Assembly (NCBI GenBank): GCA_020059045.1 | Contig: JAGVCW010000027.1 | Span: 1 to 49,544 of the forward strand | Direction: 5' to 3' | DNA length: 49,544 nt | From: Minisyncoccota bacterium | GTDB lineage: Bacteria > Patescibacteriota > Minisyncoccia > Phycocordibacterales > Zambryskibacteraceae | Shown here: piece after piece, positions 18,212 to 25,539 of the stretch | Position numbering within the stretch: the stretch's first letter is position 1 | Layout: each line of letters begins with the position of its first letter | The notes under the pieces: model-generated | What the model was told of the DNA's origin: nothing | The model's database searches: none | The model's input: the letters and a program-made list of their open reading frames with translations, nothing else | Program-made: the position numbers and the translations under genes

Positions 18212-18940
18212 TTAGAGTTTTTCCGTTTGTTTTGTATGATGGCCTGAGCGCTTCATGTTTTTCTGTAAGTATTCCTTCAGCTTAGTCTCTCCTAGTGGTC
18301 TGTCTTCATCTGGCAGGCGGAAGCTTTCACGTAGCTCCTTCCAATGATCCTTGTTCCATATCCAATTGATTATAAATATGATTGTCATCGCAACGATTGC
18401 GCCAATACCGGCAAGCCCCATATCTTTCTGTGCGTCCCATATATCGCCCTGTGTTCCAAGAAAGGCAAGTCCTGCTTCTGGAGCAACAATACTTGCAGTA
18501 AGCCACTCTATGATCTCATACACTGCTGACCCCGCTAGAACAAGATCAAGAGGGAAATAGTATGCCCAGAAACCTTTCACTTTGGATAGCCGCATGAACA
18601 CTTCACGTACAGGATATGCAAGCAAGAATCCAAAGGAGAAGTGAACTAAGCGATCGTATATATTACGAGTAGAACCGAACCAGCTTTCCAAAGTATAGCC
18701 AAAAGGAACTTCCGCATAAGTGTAGTGTGAGCCAATAACGTGCAAGATTAAAAAAATAGTAATCAGAGTATAGGAAACGTTAGAAAGCTGTAGGTATCTG
18801 CCAGCAATAAATATTATGGGTACAAATATAAAGACCAGTATGTTTTCAAGTAGCCACCCATCCCAGTAAAGTGGTTTTACTGCAGCCCAGGACCAGACAG
18901 CTGCAAAAGTAATAAATAAAAAAAGTTTATATTTGCTCAT
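18212..18940 (-). CDS. DUF2238 (YjdF-like) membrane protein
   Basis: 242 residues with about six or seven membrane helices and a long charged cytoplasmic C-terminus. Characteristic DUF2238 stretches are visible: HVIGSHYTYAEVPFG, YDRLVHFSFGFLLAYPVRE, AVYEIIEWLTA and GTQGDIWDAQKDMGLAGIGA. The conserved His, Tyr, Asp and Glu residues within helices are as in the family, whose function is unknown. Its start overlaps the end of the winged-helix gene by 14 bases, so both belong to the TasA-like operon or its tail. Confidence 0.8.
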   Translation of the reverse strand: MSKYKLFLFITFAAVWSWAAVKPLYWDGWLLENILVFIFVPIIFIAGRYLQLSNVSYTLITIFLILHVIGSHYTYAEVPFGYTLESWFGSTRNIYDRLVHFSFGFLLAYPVREVFMRLSKVKGFWAYYFPLDLVLAGSAVYEIIEWLTASIVAPEAGLAFLGTQGDIWDAQKDMGLAGIGAIVAMTIIFIINWIWNKDHWKELRESFRLPDEDRPLGETKLKEYLQKNMKRSGHHTKQTEKL

Positions 18941-19460
18941 ATCTTACAGATTTACCAACGCTGCCGATCTGACGGAGTTTACCTTCTTTTTCCAAAATTT
19001 CCAAATAACGAGTTGCTGTAGCGTCTGACACATGAAGCAACTTCTCTACTTCATCATTTGAAATAGAGTTGTTCTTCGCAAGATAGTTCATGATTTTATC
19101 AAGTTTTACCTTCCTTTTGCTTTGAATTTTTTGTCTTGCCTTGGCGAGTAATTCAATTATGAAATTTGTTTGTGGGCTAGTATTTTCTCTTGCGCTGGTA
19201 ACTATAATAGGAGTTTGTGTATATGTATTTTCATCCATCGGGACTGGTGTATTTGTAACCTCAGGAGGCAAGGAGTTGTGTATTGTTGCCGGAGTGGGTT
19301 CATTTACCTGGGTTGGTCTTTCAAGGTTGGTACTTGTTTCAAGAGTAGGGGTTTGAGAATTATCAGAAGTGTCTTCTATCGTGCTAGGTTCAGAGGTCAC
19401 AGCCACGGTTTGATCAATGGATGTATCTTCGTTAGTCACTACTTGTTCATCTCCTTCCAT
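18927..19460 (-). CDS. Winged-helix protein with long disordered N-terminus
   Basis: 177 residues. The first 100 are Thr, Ser, Glu and Pro-rich without hydrophobic segments and look disordered. The last 60 form a winged helix-turn-helix: KLDKIMNYLAKNNSISNDEV, then EKLLHVSDATATRYLEILEK and EGKLRQIGSVGKSVRYEQI, in the DeoR/MarR-like style with the recognition helix around ATATRYLEIL. It lies 95 bases after the signal-peptidase fusion in the same direction. Regulation of the TasA-like operon is plausible from position. The low-complexity acidic part resembles the C-terminus of the neighbouring fusion protein in composition, which may be chance. Confidence 0.65.
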   Translation of the reverse strand: MEGDEQVVTNEDTSIDQTVAVTSEPSTIEDTSDNSQTPTLETSTNLERPTQVNEPTPATIHNSLPPEVTNTPVPMDENTYTQTPIIVTSARENTSPQTNFIIELLAKARQKIQSKRKVKLDKIMNYLAKNNSISNDEVEKLLHVSDATATRYLEILEKEGKLRQIGSVGKSVRYEQI

Positions 19461-19555
19461 ATGGATATTTTAACACTTTCTGTTTTTGGGATCCTCCATA
19501 TCAAAATTGCATTTATAAAGGATGGGTTATTCTCGAGCATTAATTTAACTGAAAG

Positions 19556-21109
19556 CTACTCGGTTGGTGCCACTTCTACTTCGGTGTTAGGAATTTCATC
19601 TTCAGGTACAACTTGCAAATCTTCTTCTGTGTCTGGAGTTACAGGTTCCGAGGTAGAGGTATTTTCTTTATCTGTGGATTCAACTATAGATTCTATCAAT
19701 TTAGGGTTTTCGTCTGTTTTTTCAGACGGAGCTTCATCTGTGTCTTCAGGTTCAGTTTGTTCTGACACATCTTCAATAACAGGTTCTTCAACGTCTTCAG
19801 GTACTTCTTCTGGCAAAGTTTCTGTTACTGTTTCGCCTGGTGATTCGACCTCCACACTCGCTGGGAAGTTGTAGTTATATATTTTAAAAGGGTAGCGCTC
19901 CTCGTCTGTAAATGTTGTGTTTAAAACTGGGACAACTCCTGTAAGTTCAACGCTAAATATGATTTCACCAGCACACATTGTACCTGCGGGCATACCCAAA
20001 TTTTCTATTGGGACATTTAACATGAAGTACCATGTACCAAGAAGGGACATTTTAGGCAACGAAAAATCTTTAAGCAGCCCTTCAAATCTATACTCGTCTA
20101 TCCAAGCATCAAGCTCAAGGTTCTCACAGCCTGGGTCGCTATCTTCTGCAAGCTCAGCTTCAATTCTATAGTCAAAGGGTATGCTTTTTGGATCTTTATC
20201 AATGTTAATTTGGAAAAAGCTACTTCCCACATTCTCGTCTGTATTGAACGCTTCACTTTGTAATCTTTTTTCGTCCAGGCTTTCTTCAGTGCTTGTAGCT
20301 CTCTCCTCACCACTTGAATCATTTGCAGAAAGCCTAAGGTCCACCATACCAGCCTTTAAGAAGTTTCCAAGAGATGCTTCCATATCGTTGAAATAAGATA
20401 CTGTACTACCAACAGAAGATAGTCCAACAAGTGTCCCAATGGAGATCATTATTACCACAAACATTTTTGGGGAAAACAGATCAGAACTGTATTTCTTGTC
20501 CTCTGTTTTCGATGCTCTAGAAGTGTCTTGTGTTTTAATGTTGTCCACAAGTAAAGTCGGGGTATGTGGGGCTTCTTCGTCGCCAGTTTGTTTGCTTCTC
20601 TTTCTTCGTTTGAGCGATCTAATTTCGATAATAATCTTTCCAACCTCATCAATTATTACTGCTAGTGCTGGGACACCAACAAGCAAGCCAAAACCAAGCG
20701 GTTGGCGACCAAAATCAAGTACATACCCAATATAGGGTAGAGATGCGATTACCTTACCCTTTACTTCAGAGATTCGAGTAGGTACAGGGTCTGCAGCATC
20801 ATTTGCGTCACCTTTTGTTACAAATATTTGTGAACCGTTCAGAGTATTAGTCTCTATTATTCGGTGAGTAGTGGGGATTTGAGTTTTCGTATCTTTACCA
20901 AACGTGATTACATCACCTATGGCGTACTGACTTGCCGACTTGATCACAACAATGCTACCCACAGGTATTGCAGGTTCCATGGATCCAGATTTCACTATTT
21001 TTACTTCTAGATTACCTGGTATTGGCATTAGTGTTGCAAGAAGAAGCAGGCCAAGTATTACAACACCCACAATGAGGAGACCGTAGATTGTTTTGAATAG
21101 TGTTTTCAT
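19556..21109 (-). CDS. Signal peptidase I (SipW/S26B type) fused to a TasA-like region
   Basis: 517 residues from ATG 21109, which follows GGTGAG at good spacing; a TTG 15 bases upstream is less likely. Residues 1-180 are an archaeal/SipW-type signal peptidase: helix 5-28, Ser43 in SGSMEP, His82 in PTTHRI in place of the bacterial Lys, and the acidic residue in VTKGDANDAADP, with a helix at about 122-145. After a linker, another helix (about 205-225) ends in VSYFNDMEASLGNFLKAGMVDLRLS, the same signal and cleavage context as in the TasA-like proteins encoded next to it. A beta domain with two Cys and a 130-residue Glu/Thr/Pro-rich tail follow. Protease and a substrate-like module are thus in one chain. 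It should process the three upstream gene products. Confidence 0.82.
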   Translation of the reverse strand: MKTLFKTIYGLLIVGVVILGLLLLATLMPIPGNLEVKIVKSGSMEPAIPVGSIVVIKSASQYAIGDVITFGKDTKTQIPTTHRIIETNTLNGSQIFVTKGDANDAADPVPTRISEVKGKVIASLPYIGYVLDFGRQPLGFGLLVGVPALAVIIDEVGKIIIEIRSLKRRKRSKQTGDEEAPHTPTLLVDNIKTQDTSRASKTEDKKYSSDLFSPKMFVVIMISIGTLVGLSSVGSTVSYFNDMEASLGNFLKAGMVDLRLSANDSSGEERATSTEESLDEKRLQSEAFNTDENVGSSFFQINIDKDPKSIPFDYRIEAELAEDSDPGCENLELDAWIDEYRFEGLLKDFSLPKMSLLGTWYFMLNVPIENLGMPAGTMCAGEIIFSVELTGVVPVLNTTFTDEERYPFKIYNYNFPASVEVESPGETVTETLPEEVPEDVEEPVIEDVSEQTEPEDTDEAPSEKTDENPKLIESIVESTDKENTSTSEPVTPDTEEDLQVVPEDEIPNTEVEVAPTE

Positions 21110-21130
21110 AATCAAACTCACCAACAGATT

Positions 21131-22498
21131 TTAGTTGTCATCATTTGTTATCGTACATGTTATTGCTTCGCCCTCGTCAAGCGTTGCTGTACCACCAAGA
21201 GCTATTGGGCACTTGGGGTGACCTGTAATTGATACGAAGTGGTATCCAGCTCGTGGATCTTCTGTGATTGTGTGCGCACTGTTGGCTGAAACTGCAAACG
21301 AAGAACCGCTTGGAACTAGTATCCCATCTATTCTCATTCTAAATTGGGAAGACTGAGATGTTCCGCTCCCATTGTTTATTACGTTTTTAATGAGAGTGAT
21401 GTTTCCAGGCAAGTCATTGTTTGTAATGTAGCAGATTTTTTCTTCACCAATACCTACCGTTACATCTCCATCTTCAGTGCAGTCACCACTAAATGAGGCA
21501 ACATAGCCAGAAACTCCTGTTTCAGAAATTGTATAAGTGCCTGCAGGTAGTGTAGTTGTGGCACCTGATGTTACGGCTGTTGATACAAACCCATCGTCTA
21601 CAAAGAGATTGAAGTCTGGGACCACGTTGTTGCCTCCGTTATCATTCGTAACTACCTTCACAACAGTAAGCTTGGCGGCAAGAGTTGTTGTTGCTCGTGA
21701 GCACAAGAAAGTGTCGTTGTTACGTGCTTGAATAGCAGTAAATACTACGTCAGCAGTCAGACTATCTGTTTGGCTTGCATTATCGAGTCCTGTTCCGTCA
21801 CAAGATATCCCGCCTGTTGAATTCCCTGGGGTTCTCGGGCTTGTACTGCCTATACCATCTTGGGTGAGCGGAGAGGGTACAATGTCGCCGAAACACCAGG
21901 CCTTACCAATGTAGAGAGTTTGTGAGCCCGGGAATGGCCCTCCAGCGCCTGTCCAAATGTTTGTCTGTGAGTCAGCTAAAGTTATGGTGGTAGAGCCGTT
22001 AAGTCCAAGAGCACCGATTGGCCCTTCGGAAATCACTCCCTCGTCACTTTCTAAGACATTATCACCATCGTCTGCCCACCAAATGAAGTTTACAAGCCCA
22101 GCGAGTTCACCATTTCCAGGACCGTCGTTTGCATCCACCTCTGATTCTGGCTCAGTAAGACCGTTATCGTCGTTTGATGTTAGAGCTACGTTTGCACAAA
22201 TATATGCGTCATTAGAATCAACGTGGAGTGATATTGTATCCTCGCCGAAGTCGCCTGGTTTAATATCAGGGAAGTCGAAGAATTTCTCGACGGTTAAATC
22301 AATCAAAGCCCATGTGGTGCTCGCGTTCAGTTGGCCGTTGTAATAACTGGTGTTATCAATTTTAAGATCAATGGCACCAGCTGCAAATGTGTTTGCTGTG
22401 GAGGTCTCACTATCGGAGAAGAACGCTCCAGTCCCGCCAGCAACAAAAATTGCTGTAATGAAGACGATGATTGTGATGCTCAGTAATATTTTTTTCAT
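21131..22498 (-). CDS. TasA/camelysin-like secreted protein with two SpaA-like domains
   Basis: 455 residues. Starts MKKILLSITIIVFITAIFVA GGTGAFFSDSETS; the hydrophobic helix followed by (A)FFSD(S/T)ET is the SipW-type cleavage context, then NTFAAGAIDLKIDN. Residues about 28-270 form the TasA-like beta domain (DIKPGDFGEDTISLHVDSND, WWADDGDNVLESDEG, GKAWCFG). Two prealbumin-like Ig domains follow (about 275-365 and 366-455), each ending in CxITNDD-type strands with Cys pairs. TasA proteins form extracellular fibres in Bacillus; fibre formation here is inferred. It is the last of three paralogues, 21 bases before the signal-peptidase fusion. Confidence 0.82.
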   Translation of the reverse strand: MKKILLSITIIVFITAIFVAGGTGAFFSDSETSTANTFAAGAIDLKIDNTSYYNGQLNASTTWALIDLTVEKFFDFPDIKPGDFGEDTISLHVDSNDAYICANVALTSNDDNGLTEPESEVDANDGPGNGELAGLVNFIWWADDGDNVLESDEGVISEGPIGALGLNGSTTITLADSQTNIWTGAGGPFPGSQTLYIGKAWCFGDIVPSPLTQDGIGSTSPRTPGNSTGGISCDGTGLDNASQTDSLTADVVFTAIQARNNDTFLCSRATTTLAAKLTVVKVVTNDNGGNNVVPDFNLFVDDGFVSTAVTSGATTTLPAGTYTISETGVSGYVASFSGDCTEDGDVTVGIGEEKICYITNNDLPGNITLIKNVINNGSGTSQSSQFRMRIDGILVPSGSSFAVSANSAHTITEDPRAGYHFVSITGHPKCPIALGGTATLDEGEAITCTITNDDN

Positions 22499-22519
22499 TC
22501 CGATAGTGTTAACTAATAA

Positions 22520-23857
22520 TTATGGAAGTTGTCCGCGAATCATAACGTTGTCTATATACGCATGATTTGTATTGTCGACACCCGTGAGACTGAATCTTAT
22601 TTTCACATTGGACTTGTGGTCAGCTCCCGGAGAAAGAGAAAAACTCTTGCCAGTCCAGTCGGATTCGCCGGTAACAGTTTCAATTGTTGTCCAGCTTCCA
22701 CCGCCATTTGTGCTAAACTCTACTTTTAGAGTTTGTAACCCAAGTGGTTGTGTGGGGGAGTTCGTATCATCCATTTTTCTGTCATACTTGAGAGTAATAT
22801 CTTCGTAAAGAGTCATGTCTATTGACTTCGATGTAATTACCTCTTTATGATTCGTACTGCCCTCATTTTTGCCGGCATCTAGGTCAACAATTTTCTTGTG
22901 TTCACCTCCTACTTGAATTGCTTGTACTCCTCCTTCCTCTACCCAGTTTGAATTCCAGGATGGGTGGAAATTCATACCGAGTTGGCAGCTCTCGAAGTTG
23001 TCGAAGAAAAGGAGAATTGGATCATCACTTGGTTCTTCTTCTCTCGTCTCGCCACATATGAAGCTCTCGTTACCTCGAGCTTGTACTGCTTCAAATGTGA
23101 CATCTGCCTTTATCCCATCTGATTGGAACTCATTACCGAGACTATCTCCATCGCAATCAAATCCTGTACCGCGCACTAGTGGGCCATTCGAACCAGTTTT
23201 CCCCATACCGTCTTGTGGTAGAGGAGTCTTCGTAAGATTGCCGTAGCACCATGCTTTGCCAATATACTTAATTGAGTTGCCTGGTATAGGCGCTCCCTCC
23301 CCGGACCAAATATTGTGGTCCGAGTCCGCGAGCGTCCATAACTTTCCATTGAAGATATCTTTTACAAGACCTTCTCGGAATGTGTCTTCGCGTCGCTCAA
23401 ATACGTTGTCTCCATCGTCTGCCCAGAATGCGAATTCTAATGTGTTTTGTAGTTCACCTTGCTGCACACCTCCCGTACTATCCACGAGCATTTCTGGTTC
23501 TGTCTGCTCGTTTTCGGGCGTGCCTGTCAGTGTGACAGACATACACATCCATGCATTATTGTTGTTGACGTGAAGTGAAATGGTATCCTCGCCAATGTCG
23601 CCTGGCTTTACGTCTAAGAAGTTGAAGAAGAGTTTGCCACTAAGACCCGATAGTTCCCAAGAGGTCGCTGGGCTAAACACAAGCTTCCCATCTTCGTTCG
23701 TTATATAACTTTCGTTATCAACCTTAAGGTCGATCACACCTGATGCAAATGTGTTTCCTGTTGATTTCTCTTTATCAATCAAGAATGCACCAGTGCCGCC
23801 TATAAGCATTGCACTAACGAATATTATTGAGCCAAAGCTAGCGAGAATTTTTTTCAT
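22520..23857 (-). CDS. TasA/camelysin-like secreted protein with jelly-roll C-terminus
   Basis: 445 residues. The N-terminus MKKILASFGSIIFVSAMLIG and AFLIDKEKSTGNTFASGVID show a SipW-type signal, though FSDSET has become LIDKEK. The TasA-like domain (about 28-275) keeps DVKPGDIGEDTISLHVNNN, FWADDGDNVFERRED and GKAWCYG. Instead of SpaA-like repeats, the last 165 residues (from LLFFDNFESCQLG) look like a jelly-roll sandwich of the MAM or carbohydrate-binding type: FHPSWNSNWVEEGGVQAI, VEFSTNGGGSWTTIETVTG, and VKIRFSLTGVDNTNHAYIDN. Binding of glycan or another surface is inferred from this fold. It lies 21 bases before the next paralogue. Confidence 0.78.
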   Translation of the reverse strand: MKKILASFGSIIFVSAMLIGGTGAFLIDKEKSTGNTFASGVIDLKVDNESYITNEDGKLVFSPATSWELSGLSGKLFFNFLDVKPGDIGEDTISLHVNNNNAWMCMSVTLTGTPENEQTEPEMLVDSTGGVQQGELQNTLEFAFWADDGDNVFERREDTFREGLVKDIFNGKLWTLADSDHNIWSGEGAPIPGNSIKYIGKAWCYGNLTKTPLPQDGMGKTGSNGPLVRGTGFDCDGDSLGNEFQSDGIKADVTFEAVQARGNESFICGETREEEPSDDPILLFFDNFESCQLGMNFHPSWNSNWVEEGGVQAIQVGGEHKKIVDLDAGKNEGSTNHKEVITSKSIDMTLYEDITLKYDRKMDDTNSPTQPLGLQTLKVEFSTNGGGSWTTIETVTGESDWTGKSFSLSPGADHKSNVKIRFSLTGVDNTNHAYIDNVMIRGQLP

Positions 23858-23892
23858 TTTCGATTGTTAATTACGTATTTGATTCTAAATAC

Positions 23893-25539
23893 CTAGTTTG
23901 CGAATGTGTTCGTAACTGTGCAGGTAATAGTGTCTCCTGGAGCAAGAAAAATGTTGCCAGGGAATGTTGCTGGACATGGAATACCCAAGAAGGATGATCC
24001 CGTGACAGATGTTTGTGTGTAACCCGTCACTAGTACCTCCTCATCTAATTCGTGGGAAGTGTTAGCACTTACTCCATTTGATGAACCCGAAGTAACTACC
24101 CCGCTATTGATTGAGAGATCGAAATCGTCAGCTACTGCAGTTCCTCCAACAACATTTTTTATGAGAGTAATAACTGGTTGGATATCGTCATTAGTAATAG
24201 TACAAGTTGCTACTCCTCCCGCAGGCACTGTTACATTGCCTGACGCATTACAATCACCACTAAATGTTGCTGTATAACCAAACAGTCCTGATTCAGTTAC
24301 TGTGTGAATACCAGCAGATGTCGTGGTAGATGAGCCGGAAACAATGCCCATACTATCAACAAAGAGACTAAAGTCAGTTGTAGTTGCTGTACCACCACTG
24401 TCATTCACAACAACTTTAGTTACTGTTAGGGTTCCAGGCTCTGGTTCAGGTTCACCAATATCATCATTAGTAATCGTACAACTTGCTGATCCGCCAGCAG
24501 GCACAACTACGTTACCTCCTCCGTCACAATCTCCACTAAATGAAGCTTGGTAACCGGTGGTTGGGCCTTCAGAAACTACATGAGCTCCCGCTGTTGTTGT
24601 GCCGAGAACACCACTTGTTACAGGTGAGCCGTCAACAAAGAGTGCAAAATCGCTTACTGTTGATGTTCCTGTGTTGTCATTTATAACTATTTTAGTAACT
24701 GTAAGTGTTCCAGTTGTTGGTTCTTGTGGATCTTCTGGAACACATTGGAATGTTCCGTTGTTTCTAGACTGAACTGCTCGGAAAGTGATATCTGCTGTTG
24801 TGCTGTCTGTCTGACCAGTGTTGTCAACACCCGTTCCGTCACAAGTAAGACCTCCTGTTGAGTTTGCAGGTGTTCTTGGGCTTGTTGTGCCAAGACCATC
24901 TTGAGTAAGAGGAGATGCTGTAAGAACTCCATAGCACCATGCTTTACCAACGTATCTTACTGAATCACCTGGTAGAGGAGTGCTTGTACCTGTAGTCCAA
25001 ATATTTTCATCGGAGTCTGCTAGTGCAACTGTTGCTGTTTCTCCTACTTCAAGAGCGCCAAGTGGGCCTGCTGGTAGGGGGGTCTCGTCATCCTCTAGTA
25101 CATTGTCACCGTCATCTGCCCACCACGTGAAGTTGATCTGGTCTGCAAGCTCGCCAGTTGTGGTGCTTGTGTCTCCATCATCACCTTCTGGTTCTGTTAG
25201 ACCATTGTCGTCATCAGATGTGAGAGTAATGTCCGCACAGAGCCATGAATCGTTGTTGTTCACGTGTAGAGAAATAGTGTCTTCACCAATATCTCCTGGT
25301 TTCAAGTCATTGAAATCGAAAAACCTTTCAATTGTTAAATCTCGGAGAGTCCAGCTAGTAGCAGATGATACGGCTCCGTTGTAATAACTCGTGTTGTCTA
25401 CTTGCAAATCGATAGCACCAGCACTCAAAGTGTTGCCAGTTGATGTCTCAGAATCACTGAAGAAGGCTCCAGTAGCTCCGATGATAACTGCAACCACAAA
25501 CACAATCATTCCCAAACTTAATGTAATTCTTTTATTCAT
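23893..25539 (-). CDS. TasA/camelysin-like secreted protein with three SpaA-like domains
   Basis: 548 residues and the first gene of the operon. The signal MNKRITLSLGMIVFVVAVII is followed by GAFFSDSETSTGNTLSAGAI, the fullest SipW/TasA motif of the three. The TasA-like domain covers about 28-275 (DLKPGDIGEDTISLHVNNND, WWADDGDNVLEDDE, GKAWCYG). Three prealbumin/SpaA-like domains (about 285-370, 375-460, 465-548) repeat LTVTKVV.ND..GT, FSGDC.G.GNV.VPAGG and ATCTITNDD. The difference in repeat number between paralogues suggests gain or loss of whole domains. A long hairpin-rich leader lies directly upstream. Confidence 0.82.
   Translation of the reverse strand: MNKRITLSLGMIVFVVAVIIGATGAFFSDSETSTGNTLSAGAIDLQVDNTSYYNGAVSSATSWTLRDLTIERFFDFNDLKPGDIGEDTISLHVNNNDSWLCADITLTSDDDNGLTEPEGDDGDTSTTTGELADQINFTWWADDGDNVLEDDETPLPAGPLGALEVGETATVALADSDENIWTTGTSTPLPGDSVRYVGKAWCYGVLTASPLTQDGLGTTSPRTPANSTGGLTCDGTGVDNTGQTDSTTADITFRAVQSRNNGTFQCVPEDPQEPTTGTLTVTKIVINDNTGTSTVSDFALFVDGSPVTSGVLGTTTAGAHVVSEGPTTGYQASFSGDCDGGGNVVVPAGGSASCTITNDDIGEPEPEPGTLTVTKVVVNDSGGTATTTDFSLFVDSMGIVSGSSTTTSAGIHTVTESGLFGYTATFSGDCNASGNVTVPAGGVATCTITNDDIQPVITLIKNVVGGTAVADDFDLSINSGVVTSGSSNGVSANTSHELDEEVLVTGYTQTSVTGSSFLGIPCPATFPGNIFLAPGDTITCTVTNTFAN

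Follow-up and report, generated by a model that had tools for sequence, protein, structure and literature searches.

The last gene of an operon in the window (the whole stretch analysed here, 49,544 nucleotides of contig JAGVCW010000027.1 from a Minisyncoccota bacterium of the Zambryskibacteraceae) encodes a SipW-like signal peptidase with intact catalytic residues, joined in one chain to a C-terminal half that carries a SipW-type cleavage motif of its own. In most relatives the homologue of this half is a separate gene directly downstream of sipW, and the fused architecture recurs in other genomes of the family, the order and the wider CPR. At slightly better than even chances, we lean towards reading the protein as a chimera of SipW and a TapA-like subunit, in which the peptidase would export the fibre subunits and free its own minor subunit, which would start the fibre.

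The operon and the fused protein

The draft genome that holds the window comprises 0.9 Mb in 30 contigs. From the reading of open reading frames, four genes follow one another on the minus strand (25539–23893, 23857–22520, 22498–21131 and, last, the fusion at 21124/21109–19556). The first-pass annotation had placed three TasA-like genes ahead of the peptidase, and matches to PF12389 and/or TIGR04088 around their cut-offs bear this out; each product also has a SipW-type signal (a slash marks the cleavage site below). P0004 (TasA/camelysin-like, 548 aa; 23893–25539, minus strand; signal ATGA/FFSDSETS) scores 21.2 bits against TIGR04088 (cut-off 19) and, against PF12389 (cut-off 22.5), 21.2 bits alone and 27.4 bits with neighbouring in-frame matches added; its C-terminal part holds three SpaA-like modules (PF19403 SpaA_2, 56.3 bits in three stretches). 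P0003 (TasA/camelysin-like, 445 aa; 22520–23857, minus strand; signal GTGA/FLIDKEKS) scores 24.8 bits against PF12389 (cut-off 22.5) and 14.6 bits, under the cut-off, against TIGR04088, and ends in a reelin/jelly-roll-like module whose match to PF21471 (E = 2.5e-4) lies under the cut-off of that family. P0002 (TasA/camelysin-like, 455 aa; 21131–22498, minus strand) scores 24.8 bits against PF12389 and 21.0 bits against TIGR04088 and has two SpaA-like modules (SpaA_2, 51.2 bits in two stretches). The C-terminal modules had therefore been described roughly correctly, with the jelly roll remaining sub-threshold, but the claim that the paralogues differ only in these modules was overstated, as P0003 and P0004 share just 38% and 55% whole-chain identity with P0002.

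The range first assigned to the locus, 18927–25539, does contain the four reading frames, but it also spans a winged-helix gene (18927–19460) that adjoins the fusion; its N-terminal stretch is rich in P/T/E and its C-terminal domain matches PF13412. We rejected this gene as a member of the system, as a counterpart is present in none of the compared loci. One sortase is encoded in the genome (G000:C10:3631–4047; PF04203, E 2e-20), and despite it the fibre proteins of the window have no obvious LPXTG end. Surface-protein-like segments with repeated ND/TGGN.. motifs (for example, VDTTASTGGNTSTGG) were seen beside or within several loci of relatives (L037:10071–10703 and L038:6283–6885; also L042, L062, L066 and L100).

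Read from the ATG at 21109 (MKTLF..), which agrees with homologues and is a likelier start than the TTG at 21124, the fusion protein has 517 aa (19556–21109, stop codon included; minus strand, as are all parts that follow). Residues 1–175 (20585–21109) form an ER-type signal peptidase that includes two membrane segments and matches TIGR02228, the ER-type signal peptidase I family, at 98.7 bits (2.9e-28; cut-off 51.85). A basic cytosolic linker, residues 176–216 (20462–20584), is the counterpart of the extension with which the unfused downstream protein begins, and the two have a VDNI/VDNL/MDDV-type motif in common. The third membrane segment and its SipW-type cleavage site occupy residues 217–238 (GLSSVGSTVS/; 20396–20461); the segment ends TVS/YFNDMEASLGNFLKAG, and the site TVS/YFNDMEASLGN makes it the second export signal of the chain. 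Behind it lie the predicted mature N-terminus, a donor-strand-like segment by profile alignment to 8aur (residues 239–258, YFNDMEASLGNFLKAGMVDL; 20336–20395), a predicted beta-sandwich domain of about 120 residues with two family-conserved cysteines (approximately residues 294–411; 19877–20230) and an acidic tail rich in P/T/S/E/D/Q and without a membrane anchor (approximately residues 420–517; 19559–19852).

The catalytic residues Ser43, His82, Asp101 and Asp107 are intact, with a Ser-His rather than a Ser-Lys pair, and the catalytic columns are retained in 18–19 of the 19 aligned long-frame sequences and in all 38 separate ones. A model of the whole fusion has human signal peptidase 7p2p as its best PDB match (E = 2.8e-4). 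By its sequence the peptidase is SipW-like and stands outside the Bacillus SipW equivalog NF046067, for which it scores 95.4 bits against a cut-off of 190. Because it is the sole SipW-type peptidase found in the genome (the other signal peptidase, on a different contig, is of the ordinary LepB/S26 type), the fused enzyme would be the one that probably processes the three paralogues, if these are SipW-processed. The earlier reading of a peptidase and a TasA-like substrate module in a single chain is supported by the TIGR02228 match and by the TasA profile match described below.

The C-terminal half and its unfused counterparts

A motif had been noted in both the paralogues and the fusion. It is real, although approximate: YFNDMEASLGNFLKAGMVDL and FFSDSETSTGNTLSAGAIDL are identical at 11 of 20 positions in a direct comparison, and a profile of the C-half family aligns with one of the paralogue family at this motif with a probability of 97.5%. 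We rejected the idea that the C-half is a copy of the upstream paralogues, as the profile similarity covers 52 columns, the signal/donor segment only, and its full-domain homologues are separate downstream genes.

Searched alone, the C-half of the window matched nothing in Pfam (including PF12389) or NCBIfam (including TIGR04088), and its link to TasA/camelysin therefore comes via homologues. Among 27 aligned homologues, 11 match PF12389 (E ≤ 0.1, best 9.6e-7) and 12 match TIGR04088 (E ≤ 0.1), and two weakly match the TasA equivalog. When a profile of these 27 sequences (A1) was searched against 177,635 PDB sequences, Bacillus subtilis TasA came out best, with the TasA filament 8aur (E = 0.0077) and TasA 5of1 (E = 0.028) as the top two matches; the alignment spans the first approximately 55 mature residues, from the donor strand (8aur residue 2) through the first strands. 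No structure of TapA was among the PDB matches of A1 at E ≤ 10, and the C-half has no sequence match to TapA. An AlphaFold2 model of the C-half, for which just four sequences were eligible, shows eight strands at a modest pLDDT of 60.6; its residues 1–55 are disordered. Foldseek matched this model best to donor-strand pilins (CfaE/CfaB and FimA) and other beta-sandwiches. None of these matches reached E ≤ 0.001, and TasA was absent among the 50 listed. The outcome named as refuting the original proposal, a second half structurally unlike TasA, was thus not obtained, as TasA is the best profile match to a solved structure, but Foldseek did not single TasA out, probably because so few sequences were eligible for the model. 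Overall, these sequence comparisons give moderate support to a relationship between the C-half and TasA.

We searched 297 sampled genomes of the order, 39 of which have a match to the fusion, and read 36 complete loci. The usual layout consists of TasA-like genes, a separate sipW (approximately 180 aa) and then a separate homologue of the C-half. This homologue lies directly after sipW in 28 of the 36 loci, overlapping it by 4–59 nt in 20 pairs and spaced 1–26 nt from it in 8; the remaining loci are fused in six cases (the window and L037–L041) and differ in two (L045 and L069). Whereas the fused half had initially been tied to the upstream paralogues, its counterpart in most relatives is therefore this separate downstream gene. 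The peptidases nearest to that of the window, in L005 (Nomurabacteria) and L057 (Zambryskibacteria), are both unfused; these loci resemble the window in operon order and in their homologous peptidases (57–59% identity), and L005 has the C-half homologue closest to that of the window (about 30% identity), but two overlapping genes stand where the window has one chain. We also weighed a programmed frameshift linking the two genes of a pair, but the overlap frames vary among genomes and plain translational coupling is simpler. Many CPR versions of the downstream protein have a lamin-tail domain, PF00932, which is absent from the C-half of the window; it was seen in SipW substrates, downstream or fused, of L044, L046, L059, L105 and L107 (E 1e-12 to 1e-16).

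Recurrence, predicted cleavage and proposed role of the fusion

Among the genomes examined from the family of the window, five have a TIGR02228 match over the cut-off, and in all five it lies in a long frame (476–691 aa). The same architecture, with conserved linkers, is thus shared by the window with four further family genomes, and at least four genomes from other parts of the order have it too. In L124–L126 the peptidase, the linker, the TVS/YFND-type site and the TasA-like domain are all present, and an additional lamin-tail region is visible in the translation of L125. A search for the fusion in other genomes had been suggested in the first-pass annotation and, across the sampled CPR genomes, it found the fusion in the family, the order and the wider CPR. 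The fusions from more distant members of the phylum (L101–L103 and L105–L109), which were chosen for long reading frames and yield no rate, likewise join peptidase, linker and SipW-type signal in a single chain; unlike in the window, most of them have a lamin-tail (LTD) protein as their C-half and lack a TasA domain. In L104 (G347:C21:6000–19000), from another CPR lineage, the fused C-half ends in LPETG and a membrane segment, a sortase-type anchor, and its middle part weakly matches camelysin PF12389. Within the family of the window, a further TasA-like gene lies directly before the fused sipW (L038:12333–13472, L124:4996–5871 and L126:5146–6027), with an unusual signal, LYARGVEPG, instead of an FFSD-type site. 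Our search of open-licence papers found no published SipW-TasA fusion from CPR bacteria.

In the peptidase tree the four other family fusions form one well-supported fused clade, the window groups with the unfused L005 and L057 and the fused L037, and the fusions are scattered. A single clade uniting the nine fusions of the order, and with it one origin for all of them, was rejected (p-AU 0.0076); with a smaller set of six fusions the same test was borderline (p 0.059). As the bootstraps had not fully converged, the number of fusion events is uncertain, and more than one origin, or one origin plus fissions, is possible.

The scatter of fused forms is what would be expected if the fusion were functionally neutral, coupled overlapping genes having been joined by a small indel into products that work as they do when separate. 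The various frames in which unfused pairs overlap and the unfused state of the nearest relatives of the window SipW (L005 and L057) also fit this explanation, to which we give a chance not far short of even. However, all five SipW genes found in the family are fused, four of them in one well-supported clade, and the fused state is thus stable there. Neutrality is compatible with the processing mechanism that we favour; the one point of difference is the importance of the join itself. Nor does the system require the fusion, given that the two genes are separate in most relatives. More tentatively, the chain may be an autoprocessing protease-nucleator, whose peptidase cuts itself and releases its own fibre starter, linking how many fibres start, and where, to the number of export peptidases, and which evolved several times in CPR; we regard this as possible but somewhat doubtful.

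Of the fused proteins, 15 have a clear motif, and every one of them retains the cleavage site: positions −3 and −1 are occupied by small residues and P2' by an aromatic residue or Leu. This result is to be read with the fact that the matrix used to locate the site includes these columns and was built in part from these proteins, but the site residues are directly readable in proteins that did not contribute to it (for example, TFA/FF, AFA/YF and TWA/LY). The P2' aromatic residue found in TasA suits ordinary LepB badly; SipW is the enzyme that handles it (PMC10269814). The strand that each subunit of a TasA filament donates to the next consists of mature residues 28–38, right behind the SipW site (PMC9674648), and therefore the motif common to the paralogues and the fusion probably represents a cleavage site plus a donor-strand segment. 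TapA has been proposed as the giver of the first donor strand (PMC9674648), and secreted TapA residues 44–57 alone restore the B. subtilis biofilm (PMC10151520). Three fused proteins (L037, L039 and L040) and an unfused one (L052) have no folded domain, only the motif and an acidic tail. The three fusions are thus reduced to the part that suffices in TapA, which makes processing, with a TapA-like starter as its product, likelier than a base that stays uncleaved.

We therefore consider it unlikely that the TasA-like domain stays on the peptidase as an uncleaved anchor, accepting the donor strand of a subunit so that fibres grow from the peptidase. Such a role would suit the folded TasA-like domain of the fused proteins of the window, L038, L041 and L124–L126, and the LPETG-type anchor of L104 indicates that such anchoring occurs somewhere. 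Against it stand the motif retained in every clear fusion, the three fusions of the order that lack an acceptor domain and the fact that a tethered N-terminus is not donatable. Of the two roles first suggested for the fusion, self-processing is accordingly plausible, as the catalytic residues and the cleavage site are kept, with cleavage itself following by inference, and a base for fibre growth is the less supported, given L037, L039 and L040. The retained site could also serve the donor strand alone, or be inherited.

In the SipW-TapA-like reading that we favour, the operon would encode surface fibres of the TasA type, assembled by donor strands, in a CPR bacterium. Its three TasA-like products would be exported, adhesin-decorated fibre subunits, and the last gene would combine a SipW-like peptidase, a linker, a membrane segment that also serves as a SipW-type signal, and a minor TasA-like subunit, the putative counterpart of TapA in Bacillus. 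The peptidase half would cut the signals of the three fibre subunits, and the fusion chain would be cut at TVS/YFND by its own peptidase or by a neighbouring copy. Freed at the outer face of the membrane, the minor subunit may then donate its new N-terminal strand to the first TasA-like subunit, and with this the fibre would begin.

The fused linkers and the N-termini of unfused downstream proteins share a short cytosolic motif (VDNI, VDNL, VDGIV, MDDVF.P or MDDVLRP). A broad pattern for it matches 10 of the 36 segments, where shuffled sequences would give 0.8, and is a lead, as the pattern was picked after viewing the sequences and the relatives are not independent. The motif (also MDEIF.P) sits just before the substrate membrane segment and was seen in the window (20462–20584), L005, L038, L039, L040, L044, L046, L057, L065 and L124–L126. 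Its conservation in fused and unfused proteins could point to a regulatory tail, in which the C-half would control the peptidase as a pseudosubstrate or a sensor; in most loci, however, the module is a separate protein of exported type that frequently carries a lamin-tail domain, as suits a surface protein better than a regulator, and we judge regulation to be very improbable. Finally, one indel in a draft assembly of 30 contigs would suffice to join such overlapping genes by a one-base error, but recurrence with conserved linkers in four other family genomes and in at least four genomes from the rest of the order refutes an artefact for the architecture as such and leaves it a negligible chance in the window.

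Comparison with known systems

Signal peptidases and their substrates are separate proteins as a rule. A peptidase and its substrate in a single chain, which persists throughout a family and apparently appeared more than once, would provide a natural system for testing whether a SipW-type enzyme can cut in cis and whether a minor subunit starts fibres. Surface attachment to hosts is important in CPR bacteria and poorly understood, and the 39 sampled genomes with a match to the fusion suggest that TasA-type fibre operons are common among them.

The closest described parallel is the tapA-sipW-tasA operon of B. subtilis, in which, as here, the gene of an ER-type peptidase lies beside those of a fibre subunit that depends on SipW and of a minor accessory subunit. 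The stop codon of TapA overlaps the start codon of SipW in Bacillus, which recalls the overlapping gene pairs in the CPR order, and the N-terminal donor-strand motif at the cleavage site of TasA-type proteins in B. subtilis is common to the window proteins. In contrast to B. subtilis, the window has three paralogues of the major subunit, which carry SpaA-like or jelly-roll modules, and its accessory subunit comes after sipW, is related in sequence to TasA rather than to TapA and is fused to the peptidase. The parallel between the C-half and TapA is therefore one of anatomy only: a signal, a donor-like strand, a folded domain with two cysteines and a dispensable-looking tail. In the sipW-tasA/calY system of Bacillus cereus, one SipW serves more than one camelysin, comparable to the several substrates in the window, and a camelysin paralogue is suspected in the role of TapA (PMC10151520). 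All of these B. cereus genes are separate, and a fusion of peptidase and substrate is not described in the literature that we searched. These parallels with Bacillus make the fusion testable in laboratory strains.
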